Shown here: positions 3,465 through 15,739 of the stretch, one piece after another
How the letters are laid out: the number at the start of each line of letters is the position of its first letter
Position numbering within the stretch: position 1 is the stretch's first letter
Source: an uncultured Porticoccus sp.
GTDB taxonomy: Bacteria; Pseudomonadota; Gammaproteobacteria; Pseudomonadales; Porticoccaceae
Length of the DNA stretch: 15,739 bases
Assembly: GCA_950063125.1 (NCBI GenBank)
Contig: CATLZI010000017.1
Location: forward strand, 1 to 15,739
Direction: 5' to 3'
The notes under the pieces: generated by a model
What the model was told of the DNA's origin: nothing
The model's input: only the letters and a program-made list of their open reading frames with translations
Database searches by the model: none
Made by a program: the position numbers and the translations under genes

Positions 3465-4283
3465 TCAGGTGGTTGTTGTTTTCTCCAGAAATCCAAGATG
3501 TTTCTGTACCAATTGCAGGGTTGGCTTAAACAGTTTCGGTGATGCGCAGACAATATTTCCGCTCTCCATGAATCCGTTGCCACCCCTGAAATCGCTGACC
3601 AACCCGCCCGCTTCTTTTACCAGCAATACACCGGCTGCAATATCCCAAGGCTTCAGGTTCATTTCCCAGAAAGCATCGAAACGGCCAGCAGCCAGATAGG
3701 CCAGGTCGAGTGAGGCAACCCCTAGGCGCCTGATACCCGACGACTCTTTGGCCAGATCGGACAGGCAGGCCAGATAGGGCTCCATAAACGCGATTGATGG
3801 CTGGTTGAAGGGTATACCTGTAGCAACTACTGCGCCAGCCAGTCCAACCCGACCCGACACCCGCAGACGTTTGCCGTTCAGAAATGCGCCGTGGCCACGG
3901 CTGGCAGTAAATTCCTCGAGGCGCATCGGATCGAAAACGACACCGTGTTCAAGGCGACCTTTGTGTCGGCAGCCAATGGATACCGCAAAATGTGGAATGC
4001 CGTGAATGAAATTGGTTGTGCCATCCAGTGGATCAATAATCCACTGGTAGTCATTGTCGTTGCCTTCAAGCAGTCCTGACTCTTCTCCAAGGATGGTATG
4101 ATCCGGAAATGCCTTGCGAAGATGGTAGATGATTTCCTTTTCTGCAGCATGGTCAATTTCGGTGACGAAATCGTTGCGGCCCTTCTCGTCAATCCTGATC
4201 AGATCCACTCGTTCCGTGGCACGGGCGATCATTTCACCGGCCTTACGTGCAGCGCGGAGGGCGATATTGACCATAGGTTCCAT
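3465..4283 (-). CDS. suhB: Inositol-1-monophosphatase family protein SuhB
   Basis: Mg2+-dependent phosphatase of the inositol monophosphatase family. In E. coli SuhB also binds the rRNA transcription antitermination complex and assists ribosome maturation. The 272-residue protein carries the complete metal site: GEESG (Glu67), WIIDPLDGTTNF (Asp84, Asp87) and the late KPWDIAAG (Asp214). Numbering closely matches E. coli SuhB. The ATG at 4283 gives the conserved N-terminus MEPMVNIALRAARKAGE; the frame is open further upstream to 4514, but that extension is arginine-rich, lacks family similarity and would overlap the trmJ start. The gene is divergent from trmJ, its usual partner in gammaproteobacteria, and is served by the extended -10 element at 4316-4324. 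The tail ends in four threonines, an unremarkable variable end. Confidence 0.95.
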   Translation of the reverse strand: MEPMVNIALRAARKAGEMIARATERVDLIRIDEKGRNDFVTEIDHAAEKEIIYHLRKAFPDHTILGEESGLLEGNDNDYQWIIDPLDGTTNFIHGIPHFAVSIGCRHKGRLEHGVVFDPMRLEEFTASRGHGAFLNGKRLRVSGRVGLAGAVVATGIPFNQPSIAFMEPYLACLSDLAKESSGIRRLGVASLDLAYLAAGRFDAFWEMNLKPWDIAAGVLLVKEAGGLVSDFRGGNGFMESGNIVCASPKLFKPTLQLVQKHLGFLEKTTTT

Positions 4284-4315
4284 CGTAAAAGATTCCAGTC
4301 TGGGTAAAGCGCGGC

Positions 4316-4324
4316 ATTGTACCA
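4316..4324 (-). promoter_or_regulatory. Extended -10 promoter for suhB
   Basis: Read on the minus strand the sequence is TGGTACAAT, an extended -10 element (TGn followed by TACAAT, 5 of 6 matches to TATAAT). The -35 region is C-rich with no match to TTGACA, which is normal for extended -10 promoters. Transcription would start near 4309 and give a leader of about 26 bases before the suhB ATG. Confidence 0.6.
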
Positions 4325-4392
4325 GAGAGGGATAGGGGCGGGGAGGGTAAAAGCGGTGAATTCGTGTCCTCATGCTGCTAGAATTCGCGCCT

Positions 4393-4410
4393 CCGGCAAA
4401 CAGTTGCCGG
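4393..4410 (+). repeat. Perfect hairpin in the suhB-trmJ divergent region
   Basis: CCGGCAA, loop ACAG, TTGCCGG: a perfect 7-base-pair stem 57 bases before the trmJ start. It is not followed by a T-run, so it is not a standard terminator for either gene. It could lie in the trmJ leader or be a protein-binding site; function unknown. Confidence 0.4.
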
Positions 4411-4466
4411 GTAATATATTGTTGAACAGCCTGGAAATTTTTTCGATGTCGCCTGCTGGAACCCCT

Positions 4467-5237
4467 ATGAGCCATTTTGATAGCGTGCGTATTGTGCTGG
4501 TTAATAGCACTCATCCCGGCAATATCGGCGGAGCTGCCCGCGCCATTAAAAATATGGGATTGTCGAGGCTATATCTGGTCGCGCCCAGAGACTTCCCTGC
4601 TGACCGGGCAGTCTGGCGGGCGGCGAATGCCGTCGATGTGCTGGATAACGCGATTGTCGTCGAAAATCTTGATGAGGCTATAGCCGGTTGTGGTCTGGTG
4701 GTGGGCACCAGTGCCCGAGGGCGCCGTATTCCCTGGCCGTTATTGAACCCCCGTGAGTGTGGCGAACGCGTCTGGTTTGAGGCGGCACACCACGACGTGG
4801 CAATCGTTTTTGGCCGGGAGGACCGAGGGCTCACCAATGAGGAGCTGCAAAAGTGTAACTATCATGTGCACATTCCCTCCAACCCGGAATACAGTTCGTT
4901 GAACCTGGCTGCGGCCGTTCAGGTGCTGTGCTACGAAGTACGTATGGCGTCATTGTCCGCAGCCCAGAGTGAATCGCCTCCATTGCCCGACTGGGATATG
5001 CCCCCTGCCAAGGCAGAAGCTCTCGAGTTGTATTTTCAGCATTTGGAGCAGGCGTTGGTTGATCTCGGCTTCCATGACCGTGAAAACCCCCGTCAAACCA
5101 TGACCCGTTTGCGCCGTTTGTATGGCCGAATCCGATTGGATGAAATGGAATTGTCGATTCTCCGAGGTGTACTTACTTCCATTCAGAATGCGGTGCATCG
5201 CATGCAGTCTGCCTTGCAGAAAAAAACCGATTCATGA
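4467..5237 (+). CDS. trmJ: tRNA (cytidine/uridine-2'-O-)-methyltransferase TrmJ
   Basis: SPOUT-family methyltransferase that uses SAM to 2'-O-methylate position 32 in the anticodon loop of certain tRNAs. The 256-residue protein begins SHFDSVRIVLVNSTHPGNIGGAARA. It contains VVGTSARGRRIPWPLLNPRECG, then the knot motifs FGREDRGLTNEEL and IPSNPEYSSLNLAAAVQV that bind cofactor, and a C-terminal helical extension ending in LRGVLTSIQNAVHRM, all typical of TrmJ. ATG 4467 is preferred: TGGA lies 6 bases upstream and it matches the family N-terminus. An in-frame ATG at 4446 would add seven residues, and the frame is open back to 4317. The gene is followed by iscR with its own promoter. In Pseudomonas a cysE gene usually lies between trmJ and iscR; it is absent here. 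Confidence 0.95.
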   Translation: MSHFDSVRIVLVNSTHPGNIGGAARAIKNMGLSRLYLVAPRDFPADRAVWRAANAVDVLDNAIVVENLDEAIAGCGLVVGTSARGRRIPWPLLNPRECGERVWFEAAHHDVAIVFGREDRGLTNEELQKCNYHVHIPSNPEYSSLNLAAAVQVLCYEVRMASLSAAQSESPPLPDWDMPPAKAEALELYFQHLEQALVDLGFHDRENPRQTMTRLRRLYGRIRLDEMELSILRGVLTSIQNAVHRMQSALQKKTDS

Positions 5238-5256
5238 TGTTCCAGTCTGCGATGAA

Positions 5257-5281
5257 GTAACCTACTAAATTAGTATGTTAT
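5257..5281 (+). promoter_or_regulatory. Candidate type 1 IscR operator
   Basis: A near-perfect palindrome centred on TACTAAATTAGTA (5263-5275). One mismatched pair flanks this core (5262/5276), and the symmetry then resumes as TAAC (5258-5261) against GTTA (5277-5280). By eye it matches about 19 of 25 positions of the type 1 consensus recognised by [2Fe-2S]-IscR, including the ACT-RWWWY-AGT core. It sits just upstream of the iscR -35 box, where IscR represses its own operon in E. coli. Confidence 0.7.
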
Positions 5282-5285
5282 TTAA

Positions 5286-5314
5286 TTGACTGAAATACTT
5301 GGTTTTTACATAAT
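5286..5314 (+). promoter_or_regulatory. Sigma-70 promoter of iscR
   Basis: The -35 box TTGACT (5286-5291, 5 of 6 consensus), a 17-base spacer and the -10 box CATAAT (5309-5314, 5 of 6). The expected start near 5321 gives a leader of about 37 bases. The adjoining palindrome at 5257-5281 fits autorepression by IscR. Confidence 0.75.
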
Positions 5315-5357
5315 AGCCGCACTTGGGTTTTTAATTCGTCATTGCAGGAAAAACATT

Positions 5358-5825
5358 ATGCGGCTGACAACTCGTGGTCGATACGCGGTCACAGCCATGC
5401 TGGATTTGGCGTTAAATAACGAAAGCGGGCCAATTAGCCTGGCGGACATTTCCCATCGGCAGGAAATCTCGCTTTCCTATCTGGAGCAATTGTTTGCCAA
5501 ATTGCGCCAGAACAATCTGGTGAGTAGTGTTCGTGGCCCCGGTGGTGGCTATTGTCTGGCTCGAAGCAGTGATGCTATCAGTGTTGCCGAAATTATTGAT
5601 GCTGTGAATGAGTCGATTGATGCGACCAGTTGTAGTGGCAAGGGTAATTGCCACAACGGTGATATATGTTTGACCCATCATCTCTGGGACGATCTGAGCC
5701 GTCAAATTCATCGTTTCCTCAGCGGTATTTCCTTGGATAGTCTGGTCCATCAACAGGATGTGCAAGTCGTCATGTTGCGCCAGAGCGATCAAGCTGATGC
5801 CAATTCAGGCTGCGCAAAAGTCTAG
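5358..5825 (+). CDS. iscR: Fe-S cluster-sensing regulator IscR
   Basis: Rrf2-family transcription factor that senses iron-sulfur cluster status with a [2Fe-2S] cluster and represses the isc operon when cluster supply is sufficient. The 155-residue protein has an N-terminal winged helix ([19 protein letters not shown], then [20 protein letters not shown] and the wing RGPGGGY). The cluster-binding loop has Cys92, Cys98, Cys104 and His107, the exact E. coli ligand positions, so cluster sensing should be intact. ATG 5358 has GCAGGA 8 bases upstream and gives the conserved N-terminus; an upstream in-frame TTG at 5286 lies inside the promoter. Its TAG stop overlaps the iscS Shine-Dalgarno sequence (AGGAG at 5824-5828), so the two genes are tightly coupled. 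It now heads an operon whose assembly genes are mostly gone. Confidence 0.97.
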
Positions 5826-5835
5826 GAGTCTTTGC

Positions 5836-7050
5836 ATGAAACTGCCTATATATCTCGATTATTCTGCTACCACGCCGGTTGATCCACGGGTGGCTGCCAA
5901 AATGTCAGAGTGCCTTACCAATGACGGTATCTTTGGCAACCCGGCCTCGCGTTCGCACGCCTTTGGCTGGCAGGCAGAGGCGGCGGTCGAAGCGGCCAGG
6001 AGCCAAGTGGCAGAGCTTGTTAATGCAGACCCAAGGGAGATTATCTGGACTTCTGGTGCCACCGAGGCCGATAACCTGGCGATTAAAGGTTGTGCCCACT
6101 TCAATCAGAAGAAGGGCAAGCATATTATTACTTCAAAAATCGAGCACAAGGCTGTTTTGGATACCTGCCGGCAGTTGGAGCGTGAGGGCTTCGAGGTGAC
6201 TTATCTCGACCCTGATGCTGACGGCATTATTCAGCCACAGGTCGTCGCCGATGCCATTCGTGAAGATACAACGCTGGTTTCGCTAATGCATGTCAATAAT
6301 GAGATTGGCACGATTAACGATATTGCCGCTATCGGTGAGATCTGTCGTGACCGGAAGGTATTTTTTCATGTAGATGCCGCCCAGAGTACCGGCAAACAGC
6401 CGATTGATCTGCAGGCAATGAAAGTGGACTTGATGGCGTTTTCCGCCCATAAAACCTACGGTCCAAAGGGGATCGGTGCCCTTTATGTCCGGCGGAAACC
6501 GCGTGTGCGCATTGAGGCTCAAACCCACGGCGGTGGTCATGAGCGGGGCATGCGCTCCGGTACGCTCCCTACCCATCAGATTGTCGGTATGGGCGAAGCT
6601 TTTCGGATAGCCAGGGAAGAAATGGCCGATGAAAATAAACGGGTACTGGCGTTACGCAATCGTCTTTGGGATGGCATTCGTGACCTGGACGAGGTGCATC
6701 TCAATGGCTCCATGCAGCAGCGCATTGCTGGCAATTTAAATGTTAGTTTTGCCTTTGTCGAAGGGGAGTCGTTGATAATGGCGTTGAAAGACCTGGCCGT
6801 TTCTTCCGGATCTGCCTGTACCTCAGCGAGCCTGGAGCCCTCCTATGTGTTGCGGGCGTTGGGGCTTGACGATGAATTGGCGCACAGCTCTATTCGCTTT
6901 TCCATTGGCCGCTTTACTACCGCTGAAGAAATTGATTATGCGATTGTCAAAGTGCGTGAGGCGGTTACCAAATTGCGTGAGTTATCCCCGCTTTGGGACA
7001 TGTTTAAAGACGGTGTCGATCTCAGTGAGGTCGAATGGGCTGCACATTAA
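5836..7050 (+). CDS. iscS: Cysteine desulfurase IscS
   Basis: PLP-dependent enzyme that removes sulfur from L-cysteine as an enzyme-bound persulfide. It supplies the IscU scaffold and also tRNA thiolation, thiamine and molybdopterin pathways. The 404 residues equal the E. coli length and align without gaps. Visible are [13 protein letters not shown], His104 in EHKAVLD, the PLP lysine Lys206 in [10 protein letters not shown], and the persulfide Cys328 in [10 protein letters not shown]. The C-terminal tail, [25 protein letters not shown], which docks IscU, is also retained. ATG 5836 has AGGAG 7 bases upstream. The protein looks fully functional although its normal partner iscU immediately downstream is destroyed. 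Its other clients could explain why it is kept. The stop TAA overlaps an ATG (7050) that opens a four-codon ORF ending at 7064. Confidence 0.97.
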
Positions 7051-7067
7051 TGTTGAGAAGTTGAATC

Positions 7068-7199
7068 CTGGCATACAGCGAAAAAGTTCTGGAGCATTAC
7101 GAAAATCCTCGCAATGTCGGCAAGCTGGACGACAAATCCAGTAATGTCGGGACCGGCATGGTCGGTGCTCCGGCTTGTGGTGATGTCATGCGCTTGCAA
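7068..7199 (+). pseudogene. iscU: iscU remnant: first 44 codons only, start codon lost
   Basis: IscU is the scaffold on which [2Fe-2S] clusters are built. Codons 2-44 read AYSEKVLEHYENPRNVGKLD, then a variable stretch, then GMVGAPACGDVMRLQ, nearly identical to E. coli IscU residues 2-44, with Cys37 and Asp39 kept. The start codon is CTG where the family has ATG (CTGGCATAC for Met-Ala-Tyr). An in-frame TGA at 7062-7064 excludes any upstream start. After Gln44 the sequence switches to iscX, so the other two cluster cysteines (63 and 106 in E. coli numbering) and the LPPVK loop recognised by HscA are absent. A functional scaffold cannot be made from this fragment. The frame continues into the iscX remnant. 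Conservation up to the join, with no frameshift, suggests recent decay. Confidence 0.93.
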
Positions 7200-7403
7200 A
7201 TGGTGTCGTTAAAGTGGACAGATGTAATCGATATTGCGATTGAGTTATAGGAAGCCCGGCCCGATCTGGATCCCCGTACTGTGAATTTTGTCGATCTGCG
7301 AGATTGGGTGCTGGCGCTGAATGAGTTCGATGATGATCCGGCCCACTGTGGTGAAAAAATCCTTGAAGCCATCCAGATGGCATGGATTGAAGAACTCGAT
7401 TAG
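7200..7403 (+). pseudogene. iscX: iscX with an in-frame TAG, fused in frame to the iscU remnant
   Basis: IscX is a small acidic protein that binds IscS and modulates cluster assembly; it normally closes the isc operon. Its ATG (7200-7202) follows directly on iscU codon 44 in the same frame. It reads MVSLKWTDVIDIAIEL, then TAG at 7248-7250, then EARPDLDPRTVNFVDLRDWV and on through ALNEFDDDPAHCGEKILEAI to a final TAG at 7401-7403. The premature TAG falls where E. coli IscX has tyrosine (EALYDAYPDLDP), so one base change from TAT or TAC explains it. TAG is used as an ordinary stop by iscR and ndk here, so recoding is not supported. Everything else matches IscX over its full ~66-residue length. 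The missing stretch between iscU and iscX normally holds the rest of iscU, iscA, hscB, hscA and fdx. Confidence 0.93.
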
Positions 7404-7441
7404 AATGAACCACAGCTTCAATATGCTACCAAGGGGTGTTA

Positions 7442-9277
7442 ATGAGCTCAAAAGAAGAGCTTTATAAAGTACTGGTTGAATCAGTTCCCTACGGCACCCT
7501 TTTCTTTGCTTACGGCGTCTGTATCGATGCCAACAAACATGCACTTGCCCTGCTGGGCTGCGACCTCAAGCAGCTGGTGGGCGCTTCAGTGGATAGCATC
7601 ACTGGTGACGAATCCACCGCGCTTGTCGATCTCAAGTTACAACTGAAAAAAGCCTTGCGGGACCGTACTGAAAAGCTGGACTGGTCGTGTCCTGGTCGTA
7701 CCGAAACTGTGGCTGTCAGTATTGTTTATGTGGGTGACGACAATAGAGAACTGGTAGTTATGCTGCACACTCAGGAATTGTCCTGCGATGTTGCTTCACC
7801 TTCTGTCAGTGAGCCGGGATTGTCCGTCGCCGGTGCTGAATCACTCGAAAATATCGAAGTTGGCTCCCCTGATGTGATATTGCCCGCCAGCGATATTTAT
7901 GACGGTGCCGATGTTGTCGTCGATGATGAAGATGTCAGCAATCCAGGCGTCAAGCCCTGGGAGGAGTCTGCCAAGGATCACTATTATGACAGTCTTACCG
8001 GTTTGCCCAATCGGCAATTGCTGATTCAGTCCATCAGCCGGTATCTGGATCACCATCGCGACCAGCCGGTATGCGGTGCCCTGATGATTGTCGATCTTGA
8101 TCACTTCAAGGATATTAATGATTCCTGGGGCAATGCTGTGGGGGATCAGGTAATCAAGAAGATTGGTCAGGCGCTGTCTCGCCTGGTCACGGGGGGTAAC
8201 GTGCTCGCCCGTATGAGTGGTGACGAGTTCGTGCTTTTTATTCCCCACCTGGCTGATGACTTGTCAAAAGCCGCCTGGAGTGCGCAGTCGTTGGCCGAAA
8301 AGCTGGGTGAAATGGTTGCGAGCCCTCTGTTTCTCGATGGCCATGAAGTCATACTGACTGCAAGTGTCGGTATTGCACTTATTTCGGACAGTGGCATCAG
8401 TGCCGAGCGCGTACTCCAGTTTGCCGATACGGCCATGTACGAGGCGAAGCGCAAGGGCCGCAACAGCATCGCTTTTTTTGATCCTTGCATCTCGGAGAAA
8501 GCGCAACGACAGATTGGCATGAATACCCGATTGCGCAAGGCAATGGATAACCACGAGTTTGTGCTCTATATTCAGCCGCAAATTTCTGTTGAGACAGGAC
8601 AGTTACTGGGTGGTGAGGCGCTATTGCGTTGGATGAATTCAGATAAAATAACCAACATGCCTTCAGAGTTTATTCCGGTACTTGAATCTTCTGGTCTGAT
8701 CGTAGATGTAGGTCGGTGGGTCATTCGCACCTCTTGTGAGTACATCAGGAATTTTATTGATCAGGGTATCTGGCAAGACCACATGCGGCTTGGCATCAAT
8801 ATCAGCCCACGCCAGTTTCGCGATCCCCAGTTGTTGGATATCGTCCAGCACAGCATGAGCAGCTACAACATAGACCCGAGCTTCCTCAATTTCGAAGTGA
8901 CTGAAAATTTGGTCATTGAAGATGTGGATGAGGCCATTCGCAAGATGGAGGCAATCAAGTCGCTGGGCTCCATGTTTTCAATTGATGACTTCGGCATTGG
9001 CTACTCCTCCATGATTTATCTGAAGCGTCTGCCGTTTGATCAACTGAAGATCGATCGTGAGTTTATCCGGAATATTCATCGCGATCCCGAGAGCCGGGGT
9101 ATCGTGGAAGCGATCATGGCTGTGTCAAAGCAGTATGGTTTGAAAGTTACCGCGGAAGGTGTTGAGACACCGGAAGCCCTTGAGATACTTCGGGAGCTGG
9201 GTTGCCATTCCTATCAGGGTGCCCACTTTAGTATGCCTATTTCCTGTGATCGTTTTACTAAACTGCTGGCTGCCTGA
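7442..9277 (+). CDS. PAS-GGDEF-EAL cyclic-di-GMP signalling protein
   Basis: Cytosolic c-di-GMP enzyme of 611 residues with no transmembrane segment. A PAS-like sensor occupies about residues 5-110, followed by a low-complexity acidic linker (about 115-175). The GGDEF domain (about 180-347) has signature SGDEF at 259-263 and metal Asp in MIVDLDHFKDIND; Ser in the first position is known from active cyclases. The RxxD inhibitory site is absent (TGGN at 250-253). The EAL domain (about 360-608) keeps every residue needed for phosphodiesterase activity: Glu392 (EALLR), Asn453, Glu485, Asp515/Asp516 (DDFGIGYSS), Lys536, Glu572 and Gln592. It may be bifunctional or mainly a phosphodiesterase. ATG 7442 with AAGGGG 5 bases before it is preferred over an in-frame GTG at 7436. 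It lies 38 bases after the iscX remnant, with no clear own promoter, so it may be read from the IscR-controlled promoter. Confidence 0.93.
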   Translation: MSSKEELYKVLVESVPYGTLFFAYGVCIDANKHALALLGCDLKQLVGASVDSITGDESTALVDLKLQLKKALRDRTEKLDWSCPGRTETVAVSIVYVGDDNRELVVMLHTQELSCDVASPSVSEPGLSVAGAESLENIEVGSPDVILPASDIYDGADVVVDDEDVSNPGVKPWEESAKDHYYDSLTGLPNRQLLIQSISRYLDHHRDQPVCGALMIVDLDHFKDINDSWGNAVGDQVIKKIGQALSRLVTGGNVLARMSGDEFVLFIPHLADDLSKAAWSAQSLAEKLGEMVASPLFLDGHEVILTASVGIALISDSGISAERVLQFADTAMYEAKRKGRNSIAFFDPCISEKAQRQIGMNTRLRKAMDNHEFVLYIQPQISVETGQLLGGEALLRWMNSDKITNMPSEFIPVLESSGLIVDVGRWVIRTSCEYIRNFIDQGIWQDHMRLGINISPRQFRDPQLLDIVQHSMSSYNIDPSFLNFEVTENLVIEDVDEAIRKMEAIKSLGSMFSIDDFGIGYSSMIYLKRLPFDQLKIDREFIRNIHRDPESRGIVEAIMAVSKQYGLKVTAEGVETPEALEILRELGCHSYQGAHFSMPISCDRFTKLLAA

Positions 9278-9313
9278 CTTTCCAGAAGAATCGGAATTTA
9301 CTTTGGCTCTTTC

Positions 9314-9342
9314 TTGTAACCCTTTGTACCAAAGCGTAAAAT
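9314..9342 (+). promoter_or_regulatory. Sigma-70 promoter before ndk
   Basis: TTGTAA (9314-9319), a spacer of exactly 17 bases and TAAAAT (9337-9342, 5 of 6 consensus). Transcription should start near 9350, about 78 bases before ndk, and probably drives the ndk-rlmN-pilF-rodZ-ispG-hisS-yfgM run. The 150-base gap between the GGDEF-EAL gene and ndk shows no terminator hairpin. Confidence 0.65.
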
Positions 9343-9427
9343 AGCGCCTTTTTAAGCAGACGTGTCCAGTCGTACTTTGCGACTTTCTTTCGCTTCTTTA
9401 CCTGCCGCCATCTTTTGGAGACCCTAA

Positions 9428-9853
9428 ATGGCTATAGAACGTACCCTTTCCATCATCAAGCCAGATGCAGTGAGCAAAAATGTTATTGGTCAAATCTATT
9501 CTCGGTTTGAGAAGGCTGGCCTGAAAGTCGTTGCAGCAAAAATGATGCACCTCTCCGAAGAAAAAGCCGGTGGCTTTTATGCGGAGCACAAAGAGCGCCC
9601 GTTTTATGCCGATTTGGTGGGCTTTATGACCTCTGGCCCTGTCATGATCCAGGTGCTTGAGGGCGAAAATGCTGTGATGGTTAACCGCGACCTTATGGGC
9701 GCAACGAATCCGAAAGAAGCGGCAGCGGGCACTATTCGTGCAGACTTTGCCGAGTCGATCGACGCCAATGCTGTGCACGGCTCAGATTCACCGGCCTCAG
9801 CTGCCCGTGAAATATCCTATTTCTTTAATGATGGTGAAATTTGCCCACGCTAG
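9428..9853 (+). CDS. ndk: Nucleoside diphosphate kinase
   Basis: Transfers the gamma-phosphate of ATP to other (d)NDPs through a phosphohistidine, balancing the NTP pools. The 141-residue protein is of standard length. It shows the N-terminal [18 protein letters not shown], the substrate loop [16 protein letters not shown], and the active-site block [20 protein letters not shown] with the phosphorylated His117. GGAG lies 7 bases before the ATG. In Pseudomonas-type genomes ndk follows iscX directly; here a c-di-GMP gene lies between them. rlmN starts 37 bases downstream. Confidence 0.98.
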
Positions 9854-9890
9854 TTTCTGTCATTTCCGGTATCACCGTGCAGAATAAGCC

Positions 9891-11057
9891 ATGAGCCCAA
9901 TTCTTGCCGACGTCAATACCGCTGTTGAGCCCCAGGGGTTGAAAACCAACCTGCTGGGGCTTTCTGCTGAAAAACTATCAGACTTTTTTGTTAATACGCT
10001 GGCAGAAAAACCCTTCCGTGCTTCGCAAATATTGAAGTGGATACACCAGCTGGGTGTGGATGACTTTGATCAGATGACCAATCTGTCGAAGCCCCTGCGC
10101 GAGAGACTCAAACAGGTTGCCGAAATTCGTGCTCCGGAGGTGGTTTCCCAGCAGGATTCTACAGACGGCACTCGAAAATGGCTGATTCGCGTTGCTGGTG
10201 GCAGCTGTATTGAAACAGTGTTCATTCCGGAAAAGGATCGAGGTACGCTCTGTGTCTCATCTCAGGTGGGCTGTTCGCTGGACTGTAGCTTTTGTGCAAC
10301 CGGGAAACAGGGATTTAACCGAGACCTGACTGCCGCAGAAATTATTGGGCAGGTCTGGATAGCTGCCAAATCTTTTGATTCCCTGGGTGCCGGAAAAGAC
10401 CGGGTGGTGAGTAATGTTGTCATGATGGGTATGGGCGAGCCGCTACTCAACTTTGAGAACGTGGTCGACGCCATGGGTCTGATGCTTCATGACAATGCCT
10501 ATGGACTGTCAAAGCGCCGGGTGACCTTGAGCACATCCGGTGTCGTTCCGGCACTGGATCGGCTCGGCGATGTTTCGGATGTCTCGCTGGCTATTTCTCT
10601 TCACGCACCCAACGATGCGTTGCGCGACCAGTTAGTGCCGATCAATAAAAAATACCCGATTGCCATGTTGCTTGACTCCGCCCGTCGCTACCTTGACAAG
10701 ATGCCTGACGTGCGCCGCAAGATTACTATTGAATATACGATGATGGACCGGATAAATGATCGCGATGAGCATGCGCGGGAGTTGGCCATATTGCTGAAAG
10801 ACATTCCCTGCAAAATCAACCTGATTCCGTTTAACCCGTTTACCGGTTCGTCCTACAGGCGAGTTACCAACACCGCGCTGAATCGTTTCAGGGATATCCT
10901 TCATCAGGAGGGATATACCGTGACTGTCCGAACGACTCGTGGAGACGACATTGCAGCAGCCTGTGGCCAGCTCGCCGGTACGGTGAACGACAGGACCCGT
11001 CGCAGTCAACGCTATCAACAGGAACAGCAAGTAGTGCCCGTGAGGTTTGTGGGTTGA
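9891..11057 (+). CDS. rlmN: Dual-specificity 23S rRNA/tRNA adenine-C2 methyltransferase RlmN
   Basis: Radical-SAM enzyme that methylates C2 of A2503 in 23S rRNA and A37 of some tRNAs. The 388-residue protein contains the cluster motif CSLDCSFC (Cys128, Cys132, Cys135), which binds [4Fe-4S] and SAM. It also has GMGEPLLN, the catalytic Cys358 in [11 protein letters not shown] that carries the methyl intermediate, and Cys121 in [10 protein letters not shown] just before the cluster. ATG 9891 gives a slightly long N-terminus compared with E. coli, and no strong Shine-Dalgarno sequence is seen, so a start a few codons downstream cannot be excluded. As a [4Fe-4S] protein it depends on cluster assembly, which the damaged isc operon next door cannot provide by itself. 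Confidence 0.97.
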
Positions 11058-11085
11058 TTATAACGTCGAGTGGGCCACAGGCGGC

Positions 11086-11874
11086 ATGCGTATGAAGCTG
11101 AAATTGTCCTCGGTATTTTTTGTTGTCGGGCTGCTGGTTGTGTTGCTTTCCGTCGGTTGTGCGACGACAAAGAGTAGTACCGGTGTTGATAAGCAGAAGG
11201 TACTGGAAAATCGTCTTGATCTCGCGATGGGGTATTTGACGAGGGGTGATCATGAGCGCACCCGTTTCCATCTCAACAAAGCGATGGAGGTAGACAGTAG
11301 TTCTCCTGCTGTGCACGACGCCTGGGCATTGTTATATCAACAGGAAAAAGAGTTTGAAGAAGCAGAGAGTCATTTTCGGAAGGCACTGAGCTACGACCCG
11401 AAATTTACCCGAGGGCGCAATAACTACGGTATGTTCCTGTTGAACATGGATCGCTTCGAAGATGCCTATGATCAGTTTCTGAAAGGCTCCGAGGACCTCG
11501 GCTACCCCAGGCGAGCTGAACTTTTTCTCAAGGTTGGTGTGACGGCGCTACAGCTAAACAAGCTGTCAGAGGCTGAATCTGCTTTTGAGAAAGCGTTGGA
11601 TCTGGATTCACGAATGTCTCTGGCACATATCGAGTTGGCTGATCTGGCTTTCAGGCGGGGTGACTATCAACTGGCACAGCAACGGTTAAACCAATACAAC
11701 AGTACCAGAAACAGCCCGACGCCCCGGGGTCTTTGGCTGGGAGTCAGGCTTGCGGATAAACTGGGCAATAGTGATGCAGAGGCTAGTCAGGGGCTGGCGT
11801 TGAGGAACCTTTTTCCTGATTCGCGGGAGAATCAGGAATACAAAAACTGGTTGAATAATGAGCAAAAACCTTAG
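11086..11874 (+). CDS. pilF: Type IV pilus biogenesis lipoprotein PilF (TPR protein)
   Basis: Outer-membrane pilotin that lets the secretin PilQ insert and multimerise for type IV pili. The 262-residue protein has a lysine-containing signal peptide with a lipobox ending LSVGC (Cys25 is the lipidated residue). Tandem TPR units follow from about residue 42, for example AMGYLTRGDHERTRFHLNKA, AWALLYQQEKEFEEAESHFR and ALQLNKLSEAESAFEKALDL. ATG 11086 is chosen because it opens directly into the signal peptide and has a weak AGGCGG behind it. An in-frame GTG at 11047 would overlap rlmN and add 13 residues that spoil the signal. The next gene starts inside its last codons (17-base overlap), so the two are translationally coupled. 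Confidence 0.93.
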   Translation: MRMKLKLSSVFFVVGLLVVLLSVGCATTKSSTGVDKQKVLENRLDLAMGYLTRGDHERTRFHLNKAMEVDSSSPAVHDAWALLYQQEKEFEEAESHFRKALSYDPKFTRGRNNYGMFLLNMDRFEDAYDQFLKGSEDLGYPRRAELFLKVGVTALQLNKLSEAESAFEKALDLDSRMSLAHIELADLAFRRGDYQLAQQRLNQYNSTRNSPTPRGLWLGVRLADKLGNSDAEASQGLALRNLFPDSRENQEYKNWLNNEQKP

Positions 11875-12685
11875 CGAAGAACCATTGCAGCAACCTGTGC
11901 CGGAAAAAACTTCGCCCGGGGAAGTCCTGCGTCGGACCAGAAGGGAGCGCGGGCTAAGTATCGAGGACGTCATTGGGGGAATCGGTATAACGAGGGCGAC
12001 CTTGAATGCGCTGGAAAATGATGATTTTGACCGTTTGCCATCGCCTCTTTTCGTCAAAGGTTACGTCAAAACCTACTGCGCCTTACTGGGTCTCCCCGAT
12101 CAGGATTTGCTTGTAAACCTCGAACAGTCGATGAGTGATTTGGGTATTCATCAGCGAGAGCCCGCCATAAAATTCCCGCCTGCACCAAATAGAATCGGCC
12201 GTTTCTTAAAAAATGTCCTTCCCATGGCGGCGGTGACTATTTTGATTGTGATTGCATTACTGCTGGTCATTCAAGTGGCTGATAAAGTTAAATTACCTTT
12301 TTTGGACAGTGGCAAACCGTTGCTCAGTTCAGCCAAATCCACTGTTCTTAGTATGAAACCGGCAATGGCCTCAATGATGGATCAGGAGGTCAAGGGATCA
12401 TCCGATGCGATAGATAAACAGGATAATCCGCAGACGATGACGATCAACGTCACCCAGCAGAGCTGGATAGAGGTGTTCGATGCCGCTGGTGATCTTTTGC
12501 TTGCTGACCTCCAGCCATCGGGAACACGACTAGAGGTAACCGGTGATGCACCTTTTAAAGTGAACTTGGGTTATGCGCAGGGTGTGGAAATTCATTACGG
12601 CGGTAAAGTGGTGCCGGTATCCAATATCGCTGCAGATAATACGGCTTTTGTTAACGTCGGTCTTGACTCTGATCTGGAAAATTGA
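11858..12685 (+). CDS. rodZ: Cytoskeletal protein RodZ
   Basis: Bitopic inner-membrane protein that links the actin homologue MreB to the cell-wall elongation machinery and so helps to set rod shape. The 275-residue protein has a cytoplasmic helix-turn-helix domain (about residues 20-80, GEVLRRTRRERGLSIEDVIG onwards) that binds MreB rather than acting mainly as a DNA repressor. A juxtamembrane basic stretch precedes one transmembrane helix (about 119-141, VLPMAAVTILIVIALLLVIQ). The periplasmic part has a linker and a C-terminal DUF4115 domain starting at TINVTQQSWIEVFDAAGDLL (about 195-270). Start ATG 11858 overlaps the end of pilF by 17 bases. Only 6 bases separate its stop from ispG. pilF-rodZ-ispG is the standard gammaproteobacterial order. 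Confidence 0.95.
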   Translation: MSKNLSEEPLQQPVPEKTSPGEVLRRTRRERGLSIEDVIGGIGITRATLNALENDDFDRLPSPLFVKGYVKTYCALLGLPDQDLLVNLEQSMSDLGIHQREPAIKFPPAPNRIGRFLKNVLPMAAVTILIVIALLLVIQVADKVKLPFLDSGKPLLSSAKSTVLSMKPAMASMMDQEVKGSSDAIDKQDNPQTMTINVTQQSWIEVFDAAGDLLLADLQPSGTRLEVTGDAPFKVNLGYAQGVEIHYGGKVVPVSNIAADNTAFVNVGLDSDLEN

Positions 12686-12691
12686 AAGGTT

Positions 12692-13804
12692 ATGCAATCC
12701 CTGTCACCCATTGTAAGAAGAAAATCACGTCAGATTATGGTGGGCAATGTGCCTGTGGGTGGTGATGCGCCTATAACCATTCAAAGCATGACCAATACAG
12801 AAACTACTGACGTGGCGGCCACGGTCTCACAGATCAATCGGTTGATTGCCGCAGGTGCTGACATTGTCAGGGTATCCGTGCCCTCTATGGAGGCAGCAGA
12901 GGCGTTCGGGGCTATCCGTAAACAGGTTGCGGTACCTTTGGTGGCCGATATTCACTTCGATTATCGTATAGCCCTCAGAGTGGCAGACCTCGGGGTGGAC
13001 TGCCTACGCATAAATCCGGGCAACATAGGACGTGAAAAACGTGTTCAGGCTGTCGTCGATAAAGCGCGGGACCTGAATATTCCGATCCGGATTGGTGTCA
13101 ATGCTGGCTCGCTGGAAAAAGATCTGCAAAAAAAATACGGTGAGCCGACGCCGGATGCACTGGTTGAGTCCGCGATGAGGCATGTTGAGATTCTCGACAA
13201 GCTTAACTTTCATAACTTCAAGCTGAGCCTGAAAGCCTCAGATATTTTCATGGCTGTGGCTGCCTATCGAAAAATTGCCACCCTGATTGATAATCCCCTG
13301 CATTTGGGAATCACTGAAGCGGGCGGTCTGCGTGGTGGTACGGTTAAATCCTCTATCGGCCTCGGTTTGCTTTTGATGGATGGTATCGGGGATACCATTC
13401 GCGTGTCGCTGGCTGCCGACCCCGTGGAGGAGGTTAAAGTCGGCTGGGACATGCTGAAAAGTCTCAGATTGCGTAGCAAAGGGGTTAACTTTATAGCCTG
13501 CCCCAGCTGTTCCCGACAAAATTTTGACGTCATCAAAACCATGAATGAATTGGAGTTACGTCTTGAAGACATTACGACGCCGATAGATGTGGCCGTTATC
13601 GGCTGTATCGTCAATGGCCCTGGAGAAGCAAAGGAAGTCGACCTCGGCCTGACTGGAGGTACGCCCAATAACCTAGTTTATATCGATGGCAAGCCAAGCC
13701 AGAAACTTTCCCAGAACAATTTGGTGGATGAGCTTGAAAACTTAATTCGCAACAAAGCTGCCCTCAAAGCGACACAACAAGAAAATCTGATAGCGAAATC
13801 CTGA
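12692..13804 (+). CDS. ispG: 4-hydroxy-3-methylbut-2-enyl diphosphate synthase IspG
   Basis: [4Fe-4S] enzyme of the MEP isoprenoid pathway that converts MEcPP to HMBPP. The 370-residue protein starts with the family segment [20 protein letters not shown] and [16 protein letters not shown]-barrel region follows, and then the C-terminal cluster domain with CPSC (Cys270, Cys273), Cys305 in [12 protein letters not shown], and Glu312 as the fourth ligand, matching E. coli numbering. The Shine-Dalgarno GAAAGG spans the end of rodZ. Its TGA stop overlaps the hisS ATG by one base. It is essential in bacteria that use only the MEP pathway, so it needs a working Fe-S assembly system. Confidence 0.97.
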
Positions 13805-15075
13805 TGAAGAAAATGCAATCCATTCGGGGTATGAATGATCTGCTCCCCGAAGAGTCACCTGTTTGGCAATACCTCGAACGCTCTGTAGCGGATTTACTGG
13901 CACGATATGGTTACCGGGAAATTCGTTTTCCGATCATTGAATCGACTGATCTGTTCAAACGTTCGATAGGGGAGGTGACTGACATTGTCGAAAAGGAAAT
14001 GTATACCTTTAATGATCGCAATGGTGAAAGCCTTACGCTGCGCCCTGAAGGCACAGCGGGCTGTGTTCGTGCCTGTGAGCAGCACGGTCTACTTTACAAT
14101 CAGACCCAACGGCTTTGGTATCAGGGGCCGATGTTCCGTTATGAGCGTCCACAAAAAGGCCGTTTGCGACAGTTTCACCAGATAGGTGTCGAAGTGTTTG
14201 GCCTCGATGGTCCCGATATCGATGCCGAATTGCTGGCTATGACGTGGCGACTTTGGCAGCAGCTCGGCATTGACCAGCAGGTTACCCTCCAGATCAACTC
14301 TCTCGGCACAAATGCATCAAGAGCGCGCTATCGCGATGCGCTGGTCGCGTACCTGATGCGACACAAGGACAGCCTCGATGAGGACAGTCAGCGGCGGCTG
14401 CACAGCAATCCGATGCGTATCCTTGACAGTAAAAACCCGGCAGTTCAAACGGTCCTAGATGGTGCGCCCATTCTGGATGATTTCCTGGATGACGAATCAT
14501 TGGTCCATTTTCAGCAATTGCAGGCCTTGCTCAATCAGGCCGCTGTGCCCTATCAGATAAATAATCGTCTGGTCAGAGGACTCGATTATTACGGTAAGAC
14601 TGTCTTTGAGTGGGTCACCGATGCGCTGGGGGCCCAGGGAGCCGTCTGCGCCGGTGGCCGCTATGATGGTCTGGTTGAACAGTTAGGTGGCAAACACACC
14701 CCTGCCGTTGGTTTTGCCATGGGGCTGGAGCGGTTGGTATTGTTGCTTGACGCGGCTGGTGTGGTGCCGGATAGTATCGCCCGGCAATTGGACGTCTATC
14801 TGGTTGCAGTGGGTGACGTGCAGGGTAAAGCCATTCAGTTGGGTGAGGAGCTGCGGAGTCAGTGCCCACAATTGCGCCTACTTAACCACTGTGGCGGTGG
14901 TGGTTTCAAGGCGCAAATGAAGAGAGCTGACAAGAGTAGCGCGCTGGTGGCCCTGATCCTTGGTGAGGATGAAGTGGTCAACGATTGCGTTACGGTTAAA
15001 TTCCTGCGTGAAGACAGACCGCAGGAAAGCATTGCCATTGATAGTGCAGTGGCGTTTTTAAAGCGTATTTTTTGA
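13804..15075 (+). CDS. hisS: Histidine-tRNA ligase (HisRS)
   Basis: Class II aminoacyl-tRNA synthetase that charges tRNA-His with histidine. The 423-residue protein has the N-terminal [11 protein letters not shown], motif 1 region [20 protein letters not shown], motif 2 [16 protein letters not shown] (111-126), the HisRS-specific [15 protein letters not shown] with catalytic Arg258, the glycine-rich CAGGRYDGL, and motif 3 [15 protein letters not shown] (301-315). The anticodon-binding domain occupies about 325-420. The ATG overlaps the ispG stop (TGATG), which indicates translational coupling. An in-frame ATG three codons later (13813) is a possible alternative start. Length and motifs are normal. 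Confidence 0.98.
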
Positions 15076-15091
15076 TTAACGGGAGCTAGTT

Positions 15092-15739
15092 GTGGCAGAA
15101 CATCTCAGTGATGAGGAACAGCTTGAAAGTTTTAAGCGCTGGTTTAAAGAAAATGGTCTCTCCACGATTGTCGTTGTCGTATTGGCTGCCGGTGGTTATT
15201 TCGGGTGGGAATTCTGGAAAGGTTATAGTGAGAAAACGGCGCAGGCTGCTTCCATTACCTATCAGCAAATGATGGACACAGCGCTGGTTGACCCTGGTAA
15301 GCGCCTCAATGATAGTCAAAGAGATGAAATCAGTGATCTGGCTGTTCAGCTAAAAAAAGATTATTCAGGAACACAGTATGCCCGTTATGCCGCTATGTTA
15401 TTGGCCAGGCTGGCTGTCGAGGATGGTGAGTTTGAAACAGCTGCCGAGCAGCTACACTGGGCAGACAAAGGAGCTGATGAGGGGCTGTCACTGGTGATCG
15501 GGCTGCGATTGGCACGCATCGAAGCTGCCCGGGGAAATATAGATACCGCGATAGAAATGCTGAATAGCAAAGATGCGAAAACGATGGCCAGCGCTTATGC
15601 CGAAGCACGGGGCGATTTTTATCTGATGAAAAATGATCGGGATTCGGCTCACAGTGCTTACCTGCAGGCTTTGCAGTCTGTTGCGCAAAATGACAACCAG
15701 AGCCGCTCCATTATCGAACTCAAGCTGAAGCATGTGGCT
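15092..15739 (+). CDS. yfgM: YfgM/tetratricopeptide membrane protein, 3' end missing
   Basis: Ancillary SecYEG translocon subunit that works with the periplasmic chaperone PpiD in E. coli and has been linked to stress signalling. The frame begins with GTG 15092 (GGGAG 7 bases upstream) and stays open for 216 codons to the window edge, so only the extreme C-terminus can be missing. It has a short acidic cytoplasmic N-terminus (AEHLSDEEQLESFKRWFKEN), one transmembrane helix (about residues 23-42, LSTIVVVVLAAGGYFGWEFW), and then a periplasmic TPR-like helical region with repeats such as ARLAVEDGEFETAAEQL and EARGDFYLMKNDRDSAHSAY. The gene order hisS-yfgM (normally followed by bamB) supports the call. 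Confidence 0.93.
   Translation, partial: MAEHLSDEEQLESFKRWFKENGLSTIVVVVLAAGGYFGWEFWKGYSEKTAQAASITYQQMMDTALVDPGKRLNDSQRDEISDLAVQLKKDYSGTQYARYAAMLLARLAVEDGEFETAAEQLHWADKGADEGLSLVIGLRLARIEAARGNIDTAIEMLNSKDAKTMASAYAEARGDFYLMKNDRDSAHSAYLQALQSVAQNDNQSRSIIELKLKHVA

Follow-up and report, generated by a model that had tools for sequence, protein, structure and literature searches.

In Rhodobacter and Caulobacter iscS lies within hybrid isc-suf operons. There, iscR heads a single SUF-based Fe-S operon (PMC4618611, PMC6956336, PMC11475020). Genomes usually encode one Fe-S assembly system, and lineages are described to shift between ISC and SUF (PMC10631705, PMC11559095). ISC is reported for all but five of 120 surveyed species, and the SUF system of E. 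coli sustains ISC-deficient P. aeruginosa (PMC11559095); what that work calls Pseudomonadales is narrower than the order sampled here. In E. coli IscS acts as a sulfur hub with separate sites for IscU, TusA and CyaY/IscX (PMC2854127).

The window, a stretch of 15,739 nucleotides, is contig C17 of a draft MAG of an uncultured Porticoccus sp. (G000; 2.22 Mb in 330 contigs, 78.5% complete). It differs from the operons of Rhodobacter and Caulobacter, as the Porticoccus iscRS pair stands alone and the SUF genes are located elsewhere with an IscR-like regulator of their own. The mutual exclusion of the two systems is the same as in the known replacements of ISC by SUF in Proteobacteria, whereas Porticoccus shows the move half done within one genus, namely SUF beside an intact ISC system and then SUF beside three kinds of ISC wreckage. 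The window adds a new case, one with unusually clear stages, to a known type of replacement.

Gene order in the window

The genes of the locus are all encoded on the + strand in the order trmJ, iscR, iscS, iscU-iscX remnant, GGDEF/EAL-type gene, ndk and rlmN. The left anchor of the syntenic isc locus (4476..5237), which we take to be trmJ, gave a tblastn match of 81% to the G006 gene. A promoter block 5' of iscR (5259..5303, + strand) with two putative IscR type-1-like sites is conserved in an alignment of nine genomes. Sequence comparison with relatives indicates that iscR (5358..5825) is intact. The same is true for iscS (5836..7050), whose product of 404 aa scores over the TIGR02006 cut-off and can be aligned from end to end (1-404), the C-terminal tail included, with E. 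coli IscS. Further downstream follows a gene presumably encoding a GGDEF/EAL-type protein (7442..9277; 75% to the G006 gene), which is the next gene in most Porticoccus contigs reaching that far. The right anchors, ndk (9428..9853) and rlmN (9891..11057), were assigned by their match to relatives.

The iscU-iscX remnant

In the frame of position 7041 a TGA at 7062 is followed by ATC and by the CTG at 7068-7070. The remnant of iscU (codons 1-44; 7068..7199, + strand) reads AYSEKVLEHYENPRNVG...GDVMRLQ after this CTG and ends with CAA at 7197-7199. The remnant of iscX (7200..7403, + strand) starts with the ATG at 7200 and reads MVSLKWTDVIDIAIEL, a TAG at 7248-7250, EARPDLDP...WIEELD and finally the TAG at 7401-7403. 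Both assignments were made by frame reading, alignment to relatives and family matches: PF01592 (IscU family) covers positions 1-44 of 127 (E 1.5e-14), and PF04384 (IscX), whose match spans one TAG, covers 1-63 of 64 (E 5.3e-31). According to these E values the matches are not due to chance.

The size of the deletion was determined by alignment to G010, the closest relative with an intact isc operon. Both flanks of the junction (7199..7201) match that operon, with 94.6% and 95.9% identity, and 3467 bp are absent from the window. The AT at 7200-7201 is contained in both flanking matches and represents a microhomology of 2 bp; repeats at the junction were not found within 6900-7500. For iscA, hscB, hscA and fdx no match to any of the four could be identified within the window. 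The iscU start codon is ATG in G010, G004, G008 and G012, and CTG in G000 and G015. That G000 and G015 have the CTG in common despite their differing deletions might be chance or might reflect exchange between lineages.

The original prediction, made from the window alone, had described an isc operon that was gutted downstream of an intact iscR-iscS, between iscU and iscX, with CTG in place of ATG, a loss of a little over 3 kb and an exact, in-frame join of CAA to ATG, and had regarded the decay as recent. All of this is confirmed or supported by the comparisons. The predicted TAG within iscX is present as well, but it does not replace a conserved Tyr, as had been assumed, since the relatives have TCG (Ser; G010) or ACA (Thr; G012) at that position. 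The suggested search of the whole genome for IscU and SUF had a twofold outcome: PF01592 revealed no second IscU in the assembly, and a partial SUF cassette was found on contig C207. HscA over the cut-off was also absent from the assembly. Because DnaK is unseen too, with one weak hsp70-type match only, hsp70 genes must be missing from this 78.5%-complete draft, and the absence of HscA is therefore weak support for its loss. Taken together, the locus is a true and recent pseudogenisation of the ISC assembly block, which is best explained by SUF.

The SUF cassette in Porticoccus

Six of the 17 Porticoccus genomes (G000, G004, G008, G010, G012 and G015) contain a SUF cassette. It is located apart from isc and consists of a gene for an IscR-like regulator followed by sufB, sufC, sufD, sufS, sufA, sufT and sufE. 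Contig C207 of G000 ends inside sufD, which is present from residue 87 onwards, and also encodes sufS, sufA, sufT and sufE without any stops; sufR, sufB and sufC were not found in this draft assembly, and this incompleteness counts against a replacement of ISC by SUF. Full-length sufBCD are encoded in G004, G008, G010 and G015. The sufC match in G012 (L074 10844-11592) covers residues 1-222 of 249, which may be a lesion, a frameshift or an assembly error. The IscR-like gene of the cassette has kept its cysteines (L073 11554-12030), and two IscR-like proteins thus coexist. The suf promoter contains a conserved site similar to those before iscR, and we assume the sites in both promoters to be putative IscR type-1 sites.

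The six SUF-containing genomes form one clade with 100/100 support in the tree of the flanking genes, which comprises 16 of the 17 genomes plus an outgroup (G003 is too short and was omitted), and also with 100/100 in the rpoB tree, which was built on DNA rows from 13 of the 17 genomes. G010 is basal within this clade according to rpoB (98/98) and according to SufBCDS (99*, in a tree without G000). The tree of the flanking genes gives no resolution inside the clade. Outside the genus, the nearest full-length SufD is 59-60% identical among the best 80 of 96 matches in a search of close relatives, and a partial SufD match (L142) within the same best 80 of 96 reaches 72%.

Stages of ISC decay

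IscU is found over at least 124 of 127 positions in 11 of the 17 Porticoccus genomes. It is split between two contigs in G001, broken in G012 (105 positions) and reduced to remnants in G000, G004, G008 and G015. In G010, SUF is present together with all eight isc genes, each of full length and without a stop. Broken ISC blocks occur in five genomes, all belonging to the six with SUF, and three kinds of break can be distinguished. The first is the single deletion in G000 from iscU codon 45 to the iscX start. G004, G008 (a single 2.47-Mb contig) and G015 have two deletions and an early stop in common. Left over are iscU up to about codon 69-76, an hscA scrap of 77-83 bp, and iscX starting near codon 44 of 68. 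In G012 iscU has suffered a 1-bp deletion early and another one near its end, hscB contains two stops, hscA is cut to 1-66 (with a stop) and 164-247, and fdx is left from residue 79 of 113. The comparison with the nearest relatives, proposed together with the original prediction, thus revealed a graded series of ISC breaks in the sister genomes.

In those parts which survive in all, no lesion is common to the three groups; the CTG start is restricted to G000 and G015. The three losses were perhaps not wholly independent, as a common first hit may have been located inside the part that is now deleted. Searched with the G010 genes, the 11 genomes without SUF, of which G001 is split and three (G003, G007 and G014) run into contig ends, show no stop in iscU to iscX except one past the usual IscU end in G009. 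Because G010, with SUF and an intact ISC, is basal in the clade, SUF came first and the loss of ISC after it.

Two observations concern the quality of single assemblies. An apparent insertion in iscS of G015 was rejected, as the scaffold has a stretch of N there. The G012 MAG may be mixed, with two full-length DnaK-type matches, an odd rpoB branch and a listed contamination of 5%.

Retention of iscR and iscS

The product of iscR keeps three Cys and a His, which we take to be the cluster motif. Within the SUF-containing clade the dN/dS values of iscR and iscS are 0.060 each, which indicates purifying selection; the flanking genes rlmN, ndk and trmJ show 0.030, 0.035 and 0.077, respectively, and the suf genes 0.014-0.106. 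For the remnants, values of 0.32 (iscU) and 0.118 (iscX) were obtained in the same clade. Between G010 and G012 the values are 0.34 for hscB, 0.23 for hscA, 0.147 for iscA and 0.144 for fdx (35 codons). Those of iscX, iscA and fdx are raised only mildly, which counts against an account by relaxed selection. The nine aligned Porticoccus genomes, whether ISC-intact or ISC-lost, show good conservation of the promoter block before iscR.

MnmA over the cut-off is encoded in all 17 Porticoccus genomes, including that of the window. Frataxin is encoded by cyaY, which is not linked to isc. In the ISC-less G004 (L232) this gene is broken, with seven codons lost and a premature stop, and in G012 it was not found. 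In G000, G008 and G015 cyaY is open, which counts against a replacement of ISC by SUF. Its dN/dS is 0.12-0.30 in pairs among these three and with G010, compared to 0.08 in the single ISC-only control pair.

ISC and SUF in the order

Among 195 genomes of the order, 82 encode IscU without SUF and 108, including G000, SUF without IscU, while both are present in four (G010, G022, G080 and G153) and neither in one; this table was sorted by hand, with seven NifU-length matches, seven weak ones and G000 excluded from IscU. IscU and SUF thus nearly exclude each other across the order; the Fisher p of the table takes no account of kinship. SUF is thus present in 112 of the 195 genomes, and is absent from the five other family genomes of this sample. 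In 85 genomes an IscS scores above the TIGR02006 cut-off, and 83 of them encode IscU; the other two are G000 and G139, a congener of the ISC-only G089.

In 20 SUF-only genomes, which like 20 ISC genomes were hand-picked for family spread and not at random, iscS adjoins trmJ and/or ndk-rlmN in 18 cases and has iscR alongside in 15. None of iscU, hscB, hscA, fdx and iscX was found in the stretches examined around iscS of these 20 genomes, and A-type carrier genes occur there only inside suf operons. The original prediction had regarded a retained regulator and desulfurase as unusual in gammaproteobacteria. This is not supported, as iscRS retention is a common state of SUF-only genomes of the order. 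Because iscS is kept at this locus in SUF-only genomes, the window represents a fresh form of a common end state.

In L157 (G034; 4182-15480) suf genes occupy the place of iscUA-hscBA-fdx-iscX between iscS and ndk-rlmN, which is an in-place exchange of assembly blocks. The ISC place is also taken by suf genes in Teredinibacter and similarly in L087, L095, L118, L131 and L140. Between iscS and ndk of G139, where the ISC block would be expected, lies a gene (L155 5703-6626) which by eye we presume to encode a tyrosine recombinase-like protein; it is possibly the agent of the deletion or a later visitor.

Origin of the locus

We consider it highly probable that the locus is the remnant of an ISC operon whose job has passed to SUF, with SUF gained by the ancestor of the clade, the ISC block broken afterwards, and iscR and iscS kept. 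The ancestor of the six-genome clade would have gained the cassette at another locus. Selection on iscU, iscA, hscB, hscA, fdx and iscX would then have been relaxed and the block broken differently in each sub-lineage, in the window by one 3467-bp deletion plus point lesions. SUF would now make the clusters in this organism. IscS is probably kept for the supply of sulfur to tRNA thiolation (TusA, ThiI, MnmA) and other thio-cofactors, and IscR presumably because it still regulates Fe-S genes.

If SUF were ancestral in the genus beside ISC and had been lost in the other genomes, the lineage of the window would have lost ISC only. The wide occurrence of SUF in the order (112 of 195) would fit, as would the lack of a visible recent donor, the nearest full-length SufD outside the genus being only 59-60% identical among the best 80 of 96 matches from close relatives. 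Since 11 of 17 Porticoccus and the five other family genomes lack SUF, one gain is simpler than many losses, and we regard an ancestral SUF as unlikely; it would alter the history and not the reading of the locus. An artefact of assembly or binning, i.e. a collapse at 7199/7200 of a block that exists in the organism, is very unlikely. It is true that a draft MAG of 330 contigs and 78.5% completeness, from which hsp70-type genes are absent beyond one weak match, must miss much, and that the join has only a 2-bp match. Against a collapse stand the CTG start and the TAG in iscX, two additional and independent lesions of the remnants, and also the fact that sister genomes, among them the single-contig G008, have lost parts of this block by other deletions; moreover, there is no other IscU in the assembly.

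The idea that selection maintains the iscU-iscX fusion as a small protein with a function is so improbable that it can nearly be neglected. The join is in frame, and but for the TAG the frame would reach the iscX stop; yet an in-frame join is expected by chance one time in three, and this one was found in none of the five other SUF-containing genomes. The TAG follows after 60 codons, and no in-frame ATG, GTG or TTG lies between the TGA at 7062 and codon 1 (CTG). The fragment also stops before the Cys63 and Cys106 of IscU (numbering as in PMC2854127).

The IscS tail and its interaction faces

The IscS tail was recognised by its SPLW motif, or by SPRW close to the end. It is intact in 33 of 33 proteins from genomes with IscU and in 0 of 32 of the SUF-type set outside Porticoccus; 22 of this set are from IscU-tested genomes (the 20 chosen SUF-only genomes, G139 and G034), the member from G205 coming from a genome with a NifU-length match, and the other ten are named loci classed by suf genes in the ISC place. 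The tail is still present in the four IscU-less Porticoccus IscS proteins counted, with L386R in G004, G008 and G015. E. coli IscS with L386R still pulled down IscU (PMC2854127, Table 3). For E. coli IscS without residues 374/376-404 the text of that paper gives no IscU binding, while its Table 3 gives 'Low' (PMC2854127).

Compared with E. coli IscS, the SUF-type IscS of the order lacks the IscU-docking helix and several residues of the CyaY/IscX face, whereas the main residues of the TusA face are kept. All 32 proteins of the SUF-type set share H104 and K206, which we take to be catalytic, the catalytic C328, and W45, E52, R55 and R237; R220 has an identity of 0.88. The identity drops to 0.25 at R223, 0.16 at R225, 0.28 at E227 and 0.34 at R340, and to 0.00-0.19 at the tail sites after 381. 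Erosion of the CyaY/IscX sites is thus uneven: R223, R225, E227 and R340 are affected, G234 and R237 are spared. The TusA contact at position 49 lacks conservation in ISC genomes as well. Some of the contact-site groups are presumed ones.

The full IscU contact set is more eroded than random conserved sites, with 0 of 20000 random sets as low. For the IscU contacts outside the tail (309-316, 347) there is no significant excess of erosion (2224 of 20000 as low). The CyaY/IscX sites are weakly eroded (540 of 20000 as low, and 172 without the two sites shared with TusA). In the IscS of G139, 19 changes at 195 conserved sites were counted, eight of them in the tail, and none in its congener G089.

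In the IscS tree the ISC-linked proteins form one group (95*), and only G139 and the Porticoccus clade are nested inside it among the SUF-linked ones. G139 is for this reason the one case in which erosion of the tail is shown to follow a recent loss. Instead of having eroded repeatedly, most SUF-linked IscS may go back to an old tail-less line which travelled together with the locus. An independent-pairs test of IscU loss versus tail loss on this tree contained three pairs and gave no significance.

The pattern of a SUF-type IscS without the IscU-docking tail and with the TusA face kept may be a new regularity. Our judgement is evenly divided on the wider proposal that the move from ISC to SUF reshapes the gammaproteobacterial IscS, so that a former hub becomes a desulfurase which mainly serves tRNA thiolation. 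The enzyme would shed the IscU-docking helix and part of the charged frataxin/IscX patch and keep the TusA face, and the length of the tail would date the loss of IscU. There would then be three stages: Porticoccus would be at the first, without the scaffold and with a tail that is complete or shows an initial change; G139, with a scrambled tail of unaltered length, would be at the second; and the other SUF-only genomes, without a tail, at the third.

Significance

In the open-access literature we found no paper describing IscS tail loss, one possible match aside, and none on ISC pseudogenes in Pseudomonadales or on Porticoccus and iron-sulfur. Maps of the mutual exclusion of ISC and SUF give end states, whereas Porticoccus, which combines an intact double state with several early ISC breaks and ISC-only members, reveals in which order things happened: SUF came first, the scaffold block went next, and frataxin and the IscU-docking part of IscS followed later. 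IscS and IscR are not given up. The site-by-site pattern in IscS is a testable account of which contacts were held by which pathway.
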